This document shows positions 56,763 to 59,560 of a stretch of DNA of 64,000 nt, piece by piece. Every line of letters begins with the position of its first letter. Positions within the stretch are counted from its first letter, which is position 1. The notes beneath the pieces were generated by a model. The model made no database searches, was not told the origin of the DNA, and saw only the letters and a list, made by a program, of their open reading frames with translations. Both the position numbers and the translations under genes were made by a program. The DNA comes from Ruminococcus sp. (GTDB lineage Bacteria; Bacillota; Clostridia; Oscillospirales; Ruminococcaceae). The stretch covers positions 62,001 through 126,000 of the forward strand of contig JAJBSV010000002.1 in assembly GCA_020861185.1 (NCBI GenBank). Direction: 5' to 3'.

Positions 56763-57125
56763 ATGGCAGGACGGATGGACATAATATTCTACAAGACAAC
56801 AGACGGCGAAGAACCGGTGAAGGAGTTTATATCAGACTTAGAGCCGAAAATGCGAGCGAGAGTTTACCGAAGCATCGACCTTCTCTCGGAATTCGGGCAC
56901 ATGCTGAGAGAGCCTGATTCAAAATCCCTCGGAGATGGAATTTTTGAACTCAGAATAAAACAAGGCAGCGACATCTCAAGAGTTTTGTATTTCTTCTACA
57001 TCGGAGACAAAGCAGTACTGACAAGCGGCTTTGTGAAGAAAACGCAGAAAACACCGGCAAATGTAATTGAACGAGCCAAGAAATACCGTGCAGATTTTTT
57101 AGACAGAGAGGAGAATCTGAAATGA
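56763..57125 (+). CDS. RelE/HigB-like toxin (phage Gp49-type)
   Basis: A 120-residue (or 116 if starting at ATG 56775) protein of the RelE superfamily, Gp49/HigB type: EPVKEFISDLEPKMRARVYRS, LGDGIFELRIKQGSDISRVLYFF and VLTSGFVKKTQKTP. These toxins cut mRNA on the ribosome. Toxin-first order and the ATGA overlap with the antitoxin gene are typical of HigBA. GAGG sits directly before the first ATG, so the second ATG is an alternative start. Confidence 0.88.
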   Translation: MAGRMDIIFYKTTDGEEPVKEFISDLEPKMRARVYRSIDLLSEFGHMLREPDSKSLGDGIFELRIKQGSDISRVLYFFYIGDKAVLTSGFVKKTQKTPANVIERAKKYRADFLDREENLK

Positions 57126-57418
57126 GTGAATATACAAACTACAAAGACTTTTTAGCCGAACAGCTTGAAGACCCCGAAATCAAAGCAGAGTATGACGCAC
57201 TTGAATCGGAGTTTGAAATCAAGAGAGCTTTGATAAAAGCCCGTAGCGTTTCAGGCATCACACAGCAGGAGCTTTCAAAAAGAACCGGCATAAATCAAAG
57301 CGACATCAGCAAGCTTGAGCAAGGCAAGGGCAACCCTTCCCTGAAAACGCTTCAAAGGCTCGCAGAAGGGCTTGGAATGAGAATGGAAATCAAGTTTGTA
57401 CCCGTTGACAGGGCATAA
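57122..57418 (+). CDS. XRE-family HigA-like antitoxin
   Basis: A 98-residue protein with an N-terminal helix (YKDFLAEQLEDPEIKAEY) and an XRE helix-turn-helix (GITQQELSKRTGINQSDISK, EQGKGNPSLKTLQRLAEGLG). Neutralises the upstream toxin and represses the shared promoter, by family analogy. Confidence 0.9.
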   Translation: MSEYTNYKDFLAEQLEDPEIKAEYDALESEFEIKRALIKARSVSGITQQELSKRTGINQSDISKLEQGKGNPSLKTLQRLAEGLGMRMEIKFVPVDRA

Positions 57419-57426
57419 CAAACGAG

Positions 57427-57459
57427 CCGCATAGCTGTATACGCAGTTATGCGGTTTTT
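57427..57459 (+). terminator. terminator of the HigBA-like pair
   Basis: CCGCATAGCTG pairs with CAGTTATGCGG, followed by TTTTT. Confidence 0.8.
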
Positions 57460-57532
57460 ATTGTCGCCAATAATACACAAATTCACTCTTACTGTAAAAT
57501 TTTTTCTTTCGATGAAACTTTTTGCCCGAAAA

Positions 57533-57563
57533 TTGACACTATTTAGATGACGGCTGGTACTTT
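57533..57563 (+). promoter_or_regulatory. candidate promoter of the micro-ORF/ABC exporter transcript
   Basis: TTGACA (57533-57538) and TACTTT (57558-57563, with TG-G before it), spacer 19 bases, so weak. A 6-bp hairpin (CGGCTG/CAGCCG, 57551-57571) overlaps the -10. Confidence 0.4.
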
Positions 57564-57597
57564 TTCAGCCGAGCGAAAACCGAAAGGAGTCTTTTTA

Positions 57598-57669
57598 ATG
57601 AAAAAAGCAGTATTAATCAGAACAAGTTCGTCTTCTTCGAAAACACATCCGGGTGCTTCTCACCATTAG
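57598..57669 (+). CDS. 23-residue micro-ORF upstream of the ABC exporter
   Basis: ATG at 57598 with AAAGGAGT 9 bases upstream, stop TAG at 57667. The peptide is MKKAVLIRTSSSSSKTHPGA plus SHH: a short basic-hydrophobic start, five Ser in a row and a His-rich end. Two readings fit: a leader peptide whose translation controls the exporter through the hairpins that follow (as in BmrB control of BmrCD in Bacillus), or a small secreted peptide made for the exporter. No Cys, no Gly-Gly, no lanthipeptide or other modification gene nearby, which weakens the second. Coding is inferred from SD and context. Confidence 0.5.
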   Translation: MKKAVLIRTSSSSSKTHPGASHH

Positions 57670-57745
57670 CTATCCCGAATGATGTGTGATTAGCCCCCTT
57701 ACAAACAGGGTTTTGGGCAATTTACAATCGATGTAAGTTGCCATT
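57640..57745 (+). promoter_or_regulatory. structured leader between micro-ORF and ABC exporter
   Basis: ACACATC in the last codons of the micro-ORF pairs with GATGTGT about 40 bases on, enclosing CGGG/CCCG and GGTG/CACC pairings that overlap its stop codon. A second hairpin (GGCAATTTACA with TGTAAGTTGCC, near 57717-57742) lies closer to the exporter start. No U-tract follows either. Ribosome position on the micro-ORF would decide whether the first helix can form. Its effect on the exporter gene is inferred. Confidence 0.45.
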
Positions 57746-57778
57746 TCGGGAAACTATGTTTGAAAGGACTAATTCAAA

Positions 57779-59560
57779 ATGAAATTTTTTAACGAACTCA
57801 GAAAAACTGCAAACCTCACCCGCTACGCCCTTGTTAATATCATCGGCGGCATCAGAGCCCTGCCCTATATCATGCTGACGCTTCTTAAGTCGGTCGTAAA
57901 TGCGGCGGCACTCGTGTCCTACACCCTTCTCCCCGGCTTCATCATCAACTACCTGATGGCAGGAGACATCCGAACCGTGATCATTCTGGCGGCAACCTTA
58001 GTGGCAACGCCGTTTGTGCAGAATTCTGCGAATGCACTGATTACGACTATCGCGGATAATCACAGACATGAGCTGTTTACCGATGCGGAAGTAGCGTTTG
58101 ACGACTACAGCTGTCACATTGATTATGAATACTTCGAATCGCCGAAGGTTCTCGACATAAGGAGTCGTGCCTCAAGAGCTCAGGATGACGTTTTTGGAGT
58201 CGTCGACTGCCTGAACTCGATTCTTTCTTCTGTCATAAGCTTTGTAGTCATTCTGTCGGTAGTCGCCTACATAAATCCGCTGATGGTTGTGTTCATCCTC
58301 GTCATCGTGCTCTTAAACTCGATTCTCACAAAGAGACTGAACGTCAAGAATCACGAAACAGCTTTGAAGCAGGACCACTATTGGAGAGTTTACTGGGGCG
58401 CGAGCTATAAGCTTGAAAATCCGAACTATGCTAAGGAGATAAGACTCTTTGACATCAGCGACATGCTACTTGGCAATCTCCGGAACGTCATGAAAACAGG
58501 CAATGCTCTTGAGCACGAGAAGACTGTCAACTGGAGCAAGACCACCGTTTTACAAGCGATTGTCAACATCGTCAAGGACGGAGTTATCTATGGGTACTCG
58601 ATTATCTCGGTGCTCCTGGGCAGGATGGCTATCGGTACTATGTCCATCTATATCAGTGCGGCAAATCAGTTCTCAAGCAACATTGGTAGCATCGTGAACT
58701 CTTATCTGAGCCTGTCGAGGCTCTGCATGGAGGTCGAGGAGTATAAGAAATTCTTCGAGCTTCCGCAGAAACAGCAGTCCTCCGGCACCCGCAAGCCGAG
58801 CTTCGGGAAGAACTCAACTATCGAGTTCAGAAACGTCTCGTTCAAATACCCGGGAAGCGAGAACTATGCTCTTAAGAACATGAATCTCACAATCCGTGGC
58901 GACGAGAGACTCTGCATCGTCGGAGAAAACGGCTCGGGCAAGTCAGCCTTCATCAAGCTTCTTTCGAGGCTATACTTCCCTACTGAGGGCGAAATCCTCC
59001 TTGATGGCGTGAACATCAACGAGTATGATTACAGGGAGTATCAGAACATGTTCTCGGCGGCGTTCCAGGATTTCGAGAAATTCTATCTGCCGCTCTCGAA
59101 GAATATCGCTCTCGATAAAGATGTTGACGAGGCAAAGCTTGATAATGTCTGCGAAAGAATCGGGCTTACCGATTTTGTCAGGAAGCTTCCGCACGGCTAC
59201 GATTCCGCTATTGATAAGTGGATTGACGAGGACGGAGTCAACCCCTCCGGCGGCGAGCTCCAGAGAATCTCGATTGCAAGGGCTGTATACAGCGACAGGG
59301 ACATCTATATCCTTGATGAGCCTACTGCCGCGCTCGACCCGAATGCGGAATATGAGATTTACACCCAGTTCCACAACATCATCACCGACAAGTGCGCTGT
59401 TCTTATCACCCACCGTCTTTCGGCGGTTCAGTTAGCCGATAAGGTGGCTGTGTTTGAGAACGGACGTATCGAAGAGTACGGCACACACGATGAGCTCTAT
59501 GCCAGAAAGGGCATCTATACTGAGATGTTTGATAAGCAGGCTGAGTTCTATAGACAATAA
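57779..59560 (+). CDS. ABC exporter, fused membrane and ATPase domains
   Basis: A 593-residue half-transporter: about six membrane helices (residues 20-310) and an ATPase domain with Walker A GENGSGKS, signature PSGGELQRI, Walker B IYILDEPTAALD and the H-loop ITHRLSAV. No C39 peptidase domain. The ATPase has the export-type Q-loop (FQDFEKFYLPLSKNI). It probably works as a homodimer. Substrate unknown; drug, lipid or peptide export are all possible. GAAAGGA lies 10 bases before the ATG. The upstream leader and micro-ORF suggest inducible expression. Confidence 0.88.
   Translation: MKFFNELRKTANLTRYALVNIIGGIRALPYIMLTLLKSVVNAAALVSYTLLPGFIINYLMAGDIRTVIILAATLVATPFVQNSANALITTIADNHRHELFTDAEVAFDDYSCHIDYEYFESPKVLDIRSRASRAQDDVFGVVDCLNSILSSVISFVVILSVVAYINPLMVVFILVIVLLNSILTKRLNVKNHETALKQDHYWRVYWGASYKLENPNYAKEIRLFDISDMLLGNLRNVMKTGNALEHEKTVNWSKTTVLQAIVNIVKDGVIYGYSIISVLLGRMAIGTMSIYISAANQFSSNIGSIVNSYLSLSRLCMEVEEYKKFFELPQKQQSSGTRKPSFGKNSTIEFRNVSFKYPGSENYALKNMNLTIRGDERLCIVGENGSGKSAFIKLLSRLYFPTEGEILLDGVNINEYDYREYQNMFSAAFQDFEKFYLPLSKNIALDKDVDEAKLDNVCERIGLTDFVRKLPHGYDSAIDKWIDEDGVNPSGGELQRISIARAVYSDRDIYILDEPTAALDPNAEYEIYTQFHNIITDKCAVLITHRLSAVQLADKVAVFENGRIEEYGTHDELYARKGIYTEMFDKQAEFYRQ

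Follow-up and report, generated by a model that had tools for sequence, protein, structure and literature searches.

A 23-codon micro-ORF and a folded leader precede an orphan ABC exporter gene in the 64,000-nt stretch of Ruminococcus sp. DNA analysed here (the window), which raises the question whether the micro-ORF places the exporter under ribosome-mediated control or encodes a peptide for export. Both readings had been put forward in a preliminary description of the locus. Comparison of related loci and folding simulations now point to a cis-acting translational attenuator that would be opened by a ribosome stalled near the end of a serine run in the micro-ORF, and a probability of about 0.72 was assigned to this reading.

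The exporter gene (57779-59560, plus strand) is intact and encodes a predicted ABC half-exporter of 593 residues that has one match to PF00005 (ABC_tran), with an E-value of 3.8e-26. Walker A (GENGSGKS), signature (PSGGE), Walker B (IYILDEP) and H-loop (THR) motifs were read from the sequence, and we infer a homodimer-type architecture. The best sequence matches among solved structures are ABCB1 and MsbA, a likeness of the NBD that does not tell the substrate. The membrane part gave no Pfam match at E ≤ 1, and a structure prediction from 6 sequences had a pLDDT of 32. Orthologues with 87-98% identity were found in seven genomes of the same genus, along with paralogues at 43-50%. The copy in genome G008 (G008:C19:119932-121709; L016, L038) is divided into two overlapping frames of 362 and 238 residues, the result of either a frameshift or an assembly error. 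Paralogues occur in tandem arrays (G027:C2:18834-27096, G019:C45 and G000:C11:236160; L059-L061), two of which lie near genes for helix-turn-helix proteins that by eye are Rgg/PlcR-like (MTIGEIIKNRREELGATREDICHGI... and MDKIAIGKIIYNRRKAENCTQEDLC...).

The micro-ORF, MKKAVLIRTSSSSSKTHPGASHH, runs on the plus strand from an ATG at 57598 to a TAG at 57667-57669. Its Shine-Dalgarno (SD) sequence AAAGGAG (57584-57590, plus strand, context AAAGGAGT) lies about 8 nt 5' of the ATG, with GAAAGGAGT kept in 11/11 loci. Codons 10-14 (57625-57639, plus strand) form a run of five serines with mostly TCN codons, and Ser-21 brings the number of serines to six among the 22 non-initiator residues. Given the serine content of 6.8% in the long ORFs of the window, the probability of at least six serines is about 0.003, and a run of five serines is absent from all of these long ORFs. 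The peptide has no Pfam or NCBIfam match, nor does it match any RiPP or bacteriocin family. Thus sequence and folding bear out the features first described for this locus, namely the SD and ATG, the 23 codons with five consecutive serines, and a folded leader before a half-size exporter.

On the 5' side, a promoter-like block TGTAAA..TGAAACTTTTTG..TTGACACTATT (57490-57546, plus strand) is kept in orthologous loci despite different upstream genes. Because these genes differ between species, the conserved unit appears to begin at this block, near 57490. The block is possibly a promoter of the ECF type; no sigma-70 promoter match was obtained there on the plus strand, and its pattern has a single match in the genome and marks no other gene. 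Directly upstream in the window lies a HigBA-like toxin-antitoxin pair (Gp49/DUF891 and HTH_3, 56763-57418), which adjoins the leader in some species only, and a terminator-like hairpin at 57424-57457 ends this unit.

A search with an RNA model found the leader in 11 of the 31 genomes of the genus, in one copy each. The preliminary description had made its reading depend on conservation among close relatives, and had proposed a search for the same micro-ORF and helices before orthologous exporters. The micro-ORF is kept in frame in all 11 leader-bearing genomes; it stands upstream of the exporter orthologues of all seven other species, where the helices are largely conserved as well. A DNA search with the leader yielded three further, diverged copies. 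The gene for the Crp-type regulator, which lies downstream in the window, is carried by the same 11 genomes, which places the unit at a single conserved locus within one sub-group. When 396 genomes of the family were searched with the RNA model, no leader outside the genus was accepted, in a search whose stricter filters and few genus members mean that distant forms may be missed. One weak match outside the genus (G433, 24.7 bits) was dismissed when no such leader was seen on reading the sequence by eye. When the back-translated end of the peptide was searched against GTDB genome contigs, 10 of the 15 matches came from Oscillospiraceae/Ruminococcus MAGs and were the leader, and the remaining five (L068, L070, L073, L074 and L078) were without it and were taken as chance. 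The same pattern had no match in viral contigs.

Across the 11 loci the length of the micro-ORF varies by whole codons only, being 23 or 25, and the three diverged leaders have the 25-codon form MKTKTSVKINISSLNSSTHPGASHH. Within the exporter group pS exceeded pN for each pair of sequences compared. Among the seven exporter loci the first half of the micro-ORF shows 16% difference with its frame retained. In 11/11 loci serines stand at -42, -39 and -30 nt relative to the stop codon, with varying codons (AGT, TCG, TCT, TCC). Some species have Asn or Arg in place of Ser-13, and the diverged leaders have only four serines across the stretch. The C-terminal THPGASHH is retained at almost every locus, its Thr, Gly and Ala codons showing synonymous changes, and the context of the stop codon is invariant. 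That the ORF arose by chance inside a structured non-coding leader or a protein-binding RNA element would agree with the constraint on codons 16-23 as RNA and with the small set of 11 sequences, but the SD, ATG and frame kept in every locus, the change of length by whole codons and the excess of pS over pN make this very improbable. The near-invariance of codons 16-23 can nevertheless be RNA-driven and then says little about the peptide; the His-rich end seems to be conserved mainly as RNA, though the synonymous changes also fit coding.

In the three species with diverged leaders (G019, G001 and G027; loci L047/L056, L048/L057 and L049/L058), no exporter is present at the locus. Instead, the leader and its SD-hiding hairpin precede an ORF of 25-26 codons (e.g. 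MIYFDGLNCPALVKFEQEPILDGLMG) with the consensus MIYF.GL..PA...EQEP.LDGLMG, for which no family match was found. When L047 is compared with L048, changes fall on 10 of about 17 synonymous sites and on 9 of 61 non-synonymous sites, and the most diverged pair has a pS of 0.58 and a pN of 0.15. Since synonymous sites are changed in a larger proportion than non-synonymous ones, this ORF very likely encodes a genuine small protein. A decayed exporter is unlikely, because the likeness to the exporter start is confined to the first ~7 codons and the rest is under purifying selection. On the other strand beside the diverged leaders (L056 1355-2455 and L057 867-1968, reverse-complement coordinates), a gene encodes a protein of about 235 residues that by eye resembles HprK kinase, with a P-loop APSGTGKST and no Pfam match at 0.01. 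A short Gly-rich peptide, MDKVYEEPKFVIIKFSAKDMVYADVSSGGGG..., is also encoded there, and the set resembles a RiPP precursor locus.

The retention of the leader without an exporter in three species favours a cis-regulatory role of the leader and argues that the micro-peptide is not what the exporter transports. A signal or bacteriocin as the cargo would fit the position of a short peptide directly before the exporter gene, and the tandem exporter paralogues near helix-turn-helix regulators elsewhere would be in keeping with it. However, no C39 peptidase domain was matched in the exporter, no modification enzyme lies beside it (its neighbours are the toxin-antitoxin pair, the Crp-type regulator and an importer), the peptide has no family match, and constraint at the nucleotide level runs past the stop codon. 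The proposal that the locus exports a peptide without any modification genes is therefore disfavoured, with very little likelihood left to it.

The leader RNA (57544-57800, 257 nt) folds with a z score of -2.67, and 1 of 200 shuffled sequences folded as well. A 5' hairpin, P0 (57551-57571, plus strand, CGGCTG...CAGCCG), lies upstream of the micro-ORF SD; its 6/6 pairs are retained in six distinct sequences, and two of them are changed on both sides. Downstream, comparison and computation give two conserved helices, P1 and P2, on the plus strand. In P1, codons 16-19 (57643-57653) pair with 57674-57687 as AC(A/G)CATCCGGG with CCCGAATGATG(T/C)GT; 98.6-100% of cells are paired, and one A-U pair is changed to G-C on both sides. 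P2 is a long hairpin (57688-57774) that covers the exporter SD, AAAGGA (57763-57768, plus strand), within the stretch GAAAGGACTAATTC, which is invariant in the alignment. The second hairpin noted earlier before the exporter is thus present. The near-invariant base of P2 consists of GATTAG/CTAATT and CCTT/AAGG, with GATTAG and CCTT pairing with the exporter SD region AAGGACTAATT. Its tip (57716-57742, plus strand, helix 6 of the consensus fold) is variable in sequence with pairing kept: 4/8 pairs show a double change in at least one sequence, and 96% of cells are paired. For P1 and P2 together, 93% of cells are paired against 28-48% when slid, and 10 cells carry double changes against 3.6 in shuffles. 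The double changes in P2 are not all independent, because much of its variation comes from a few swapped alleles. The P2 interior (57710-57745) of the window's leader differs from L015 at 1 of 49 positions and from L010 at 19 of 49, and its micro-ORF is identical to that of L010, unlike that of L015, which suggests recombination inside the leader.

A third helix, AS, was found by masked folding, in which the 5' part of the leader is blocked stepwise as by a ribosome, and co-transcriptional folding and pseudoknots are ignored. In this putative anti-sequestor, 57651-57656 and 57660-57668 pair with 57680-57689 and 57693-57698 (plus strand), so that codons 18-23 and the stop codon are joined to downstream bases; its strands are GGG(U/A)GC and UCACCAUUA with UGAUG(Y)GUGA and GC(Y)CCC. 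AS excludes P1 and the base of P2. In the simulations it captures the 5' strand of P2, which leaves the exporter SD free, whereas P1 lets P2 form. Of the AS cells, 94.7% are paired against 31-58% when slid, and support for the helix rests on invariance rather than covariation. In the exporter group AS contains a U18/C59 mismatch, where the three diverged leaders form an A-U pair, and leader L041 (genome G025) carries a single P1 mismatch as well as an additional mismatch in AS. The end of the micro-ORF, its last codons and stop, had been placed inside a helix; this holds for the alternative AS fold, but in the P1 fold they form a loop. TCTCACCATTAGCTA is invariant although it lies mostly in the P1 loop, an invariance that pairing in AS explains. 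An alternative pairing of CCCGAA with a downstream TTCGGG had been considered for the chief anti-sequestor role and was given up in favour of AS on the results of masked folding.

Fourfold sites of the exporter, which differ on average by 31% among the seven exporter loci, were applied as a yardstick of conservation. In the same loci codons 16 to the stop differ by 2%, the 18 nt after the stop by 0%, the base strands of P2 by 4% and 6%, and the P2 interior by 25%. From codon 16 to the exporter SD, conservation thus appears mostly far stronger than at the fourfold sites.

In the unmasked RNA of most leaders the predicted accessibility of the exporter SD is low. AS was predicted only when the front of the ribosome masks the 5' arm of P1, which corresponds to a front edge from 21 nt to 12 nt (most of the exporter group) or 14 nt (diverged group) before the stop codon. 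This switch was seen in 9 of 11 leaders, with predicted SD accessibility rising from 0.03-0.26 to 0.68-0.97. Leader L046 (genome G024) did not open at -21 to -12, and in L041 accessibility rose less clearly. Shuffling of the P1/AS region of three leaders reproduced the switch in 0 of 300 trials for each. The stall window was retained at 42 °C. With Andronescu parameters the main window was kept in weaker form, and a second opening appeared in the exporter group at a front edge of -3 to +6, which makes the place of the stall less sure; the CCCGAA/TTCGGG pairing may lie behind this second window. Once the simulated ribosome had reached the stop codon (front edge +12 to +15), the SD was covered in every leader tested with both energy sets. 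The leader is thus predicted to be a bistable RNA with mutually exclusive folds in which the SD is either hidden or free.

The front edge of a ribosome lies 12-15 nt from the first base of the P-site codon. Given this distance, an edge at -21 to -12 places the P site at about codons 12-16. The earlier proposal of ribosome-mediated exporter control is well supported by the SD-sequestering hairpin, the exclusive helices and the in-frame ORF, but the predicted stall lies at the end of the serine run and not at the His-rich end. A sensor at the C terminus, in which THPGASHH would stall termination upon binding a ligand as in TnaC or SpeFL, is in line with the retention of these residues in nearly all loci, the synonymous changes and the invariant stop context. 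It is nonetheless unlikely: in the leaders tested the SD is predicted to stay covered with a ribosome at the stop, and the invariance is explained by pairing in P1 and AS.

Control is probably translational rather than transcriptional because the leader is without a terminator. No intrinsic terminator was found on the plus strand at 57458-57850, and transcription attenuation of the BmrB type was ruled out on this ground. A known riboswitch or T-box was likewise ruled out, as no Rfam match to either was obtained at E ≤ 1 for the window's leader or at the gathering score for five relatives.

In the proposed mechanism, the mRNA would carry the 23-codon leader ORF and three competing helices, P1, P2 and AS. 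If the leader ORF is empty of ribosomes, or if a ribosome runs through to its stop, P2 would cover the SD and the exporter would not be made. A ribosome stalled with its P site at about codons 12-16 would mask the 5' arm of P1. Bases released in this way would then form AS, the 5' strand of P2 would be removed and the exporter SD set free. The likeliest triggers would be a low level of charged Ser-tRNA at the UCN run or a phenicol/oxazolidinone-type peptidyl-transferase drug that stalls after Ser, Ala or Thr, and the exporter would probably remove a drug, or else a peptide or metabolite connected with that stress. As such, ribosome-mediated exporter control can be considered well supported by the comparative and folding evidence; translation of the micro-ORF, stalling, the signal and the exported substrate are what we infer from it.

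Two signals were weighed, each a tentative candidate with a standing like that of the other. In the first, the leader would sense a drug, with a phenicol- or oxazolidinone-like stall after serine, and the exporter would be an efflux pump, as in BmrB-BmrCD. According to PMC8987054 and PMC12121999, chloramphenicol and linezolid stall ribosomes after Ala and less so after Ser or Thr. The invariant Ser-Ser pair at -42/-39 would provide a penultimate serine with the P site at -39/-36, which brings the front edge to the 5' arm of P1, and the half-size exporter is of the multidrug kind, with ABCB1 and MsbA as its best structure matches. But likeness of the NBD does not tell the substrate, and a leader with a 26-residue ORF and no exporter in three species is odd for a pump switch. 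In the second, low Ser-tRNA(UCN) would stall the ribosome at codons 11-14 and open the exporter or the 26-residue gene. The run is mostly TCN in the exporter group, and with serine at -42, -39 and -30 in all 11 loci, an A-site serine at -30 falls within the predicted stall window; UCN-specific slowing of ribosomes under serine starvation is described for Bacillus subtilis in PMC3862929. Against this stand the lack of a known link of the exporter or the 26-residue ORF to serine metabolism, the Asn or Arg at Ser-13 in some species and the four serines of the diverged leaders.

Attenuators of the ribosome-mediated kind have been described for a limited range of resistance and amino-acid genes. 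If the attenuator model is true, it predicts a narrow stall window and allows serine starvation and peptidyl-transferase drugs to be told apart by experiment. The host belongs to an uncultured gut-type lineage in which such regulation is little studied, and the leader is found in one genus only. That one switch precedes an exporter gene in some species and a conserved 26-codon ORF in others also provides a way into a new small protein. A wider proposal, possible but doubtful, is a modular sensor of serine or translation stress, UCN-tuned and with a stall window of about 8-10 nt, placed at the same locus before two unrelated targets, the exporter and a 26-residue mini-protein of a new small-protein family, and controlling peptide-related functions. 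No prior description of this leader was found in the literature searched, the coverage of which was incomplete.

Several known systems share parts of this design. Attenuators of the ermC/cat type (ermC as outlined in PMC4191407 and PMC10219788) likewise have a leader ORF with its own SD, P1 and P2 competing with an alternative helix, and a stall that uncovers a hidden SD; the present leader differs in peptide and RNA sequence, and its target is an ABC exporter or a 26-residue ORF, not a methylase or acetyltransferase. BmrCD of B. subtilis is also an ABC exporter behind a ribosome-sensing leader ORF, but, according to PMC4191407, BmrB acts through a terminator inside its 53-residue ORF and has two target genes, whereas the leader described here is without a terminator, the SD is the controlled element and a single half-transporter gene follows. 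The serine codons of sinR are, according to PMC3862929, UCN codons that may act as a starvation sensor in a Firmicute; sinR is without a leader ORF or RNA switch, and the effect is less SinR synthesis. In the ToiL uORF of Escherichia coli topAI-yjhQ, stalled ribosomes open an SD-occluding fold, and according to PMC12121999 ToiL itself base-pairs with the SD region of topAI and probably responds to a stall at any position. The separate anti-sequestor helix of the present leader should, in contrast, confine the response to a narrow stall window. The mode of action is probably translational attenuation of the ermC/ToiL type.
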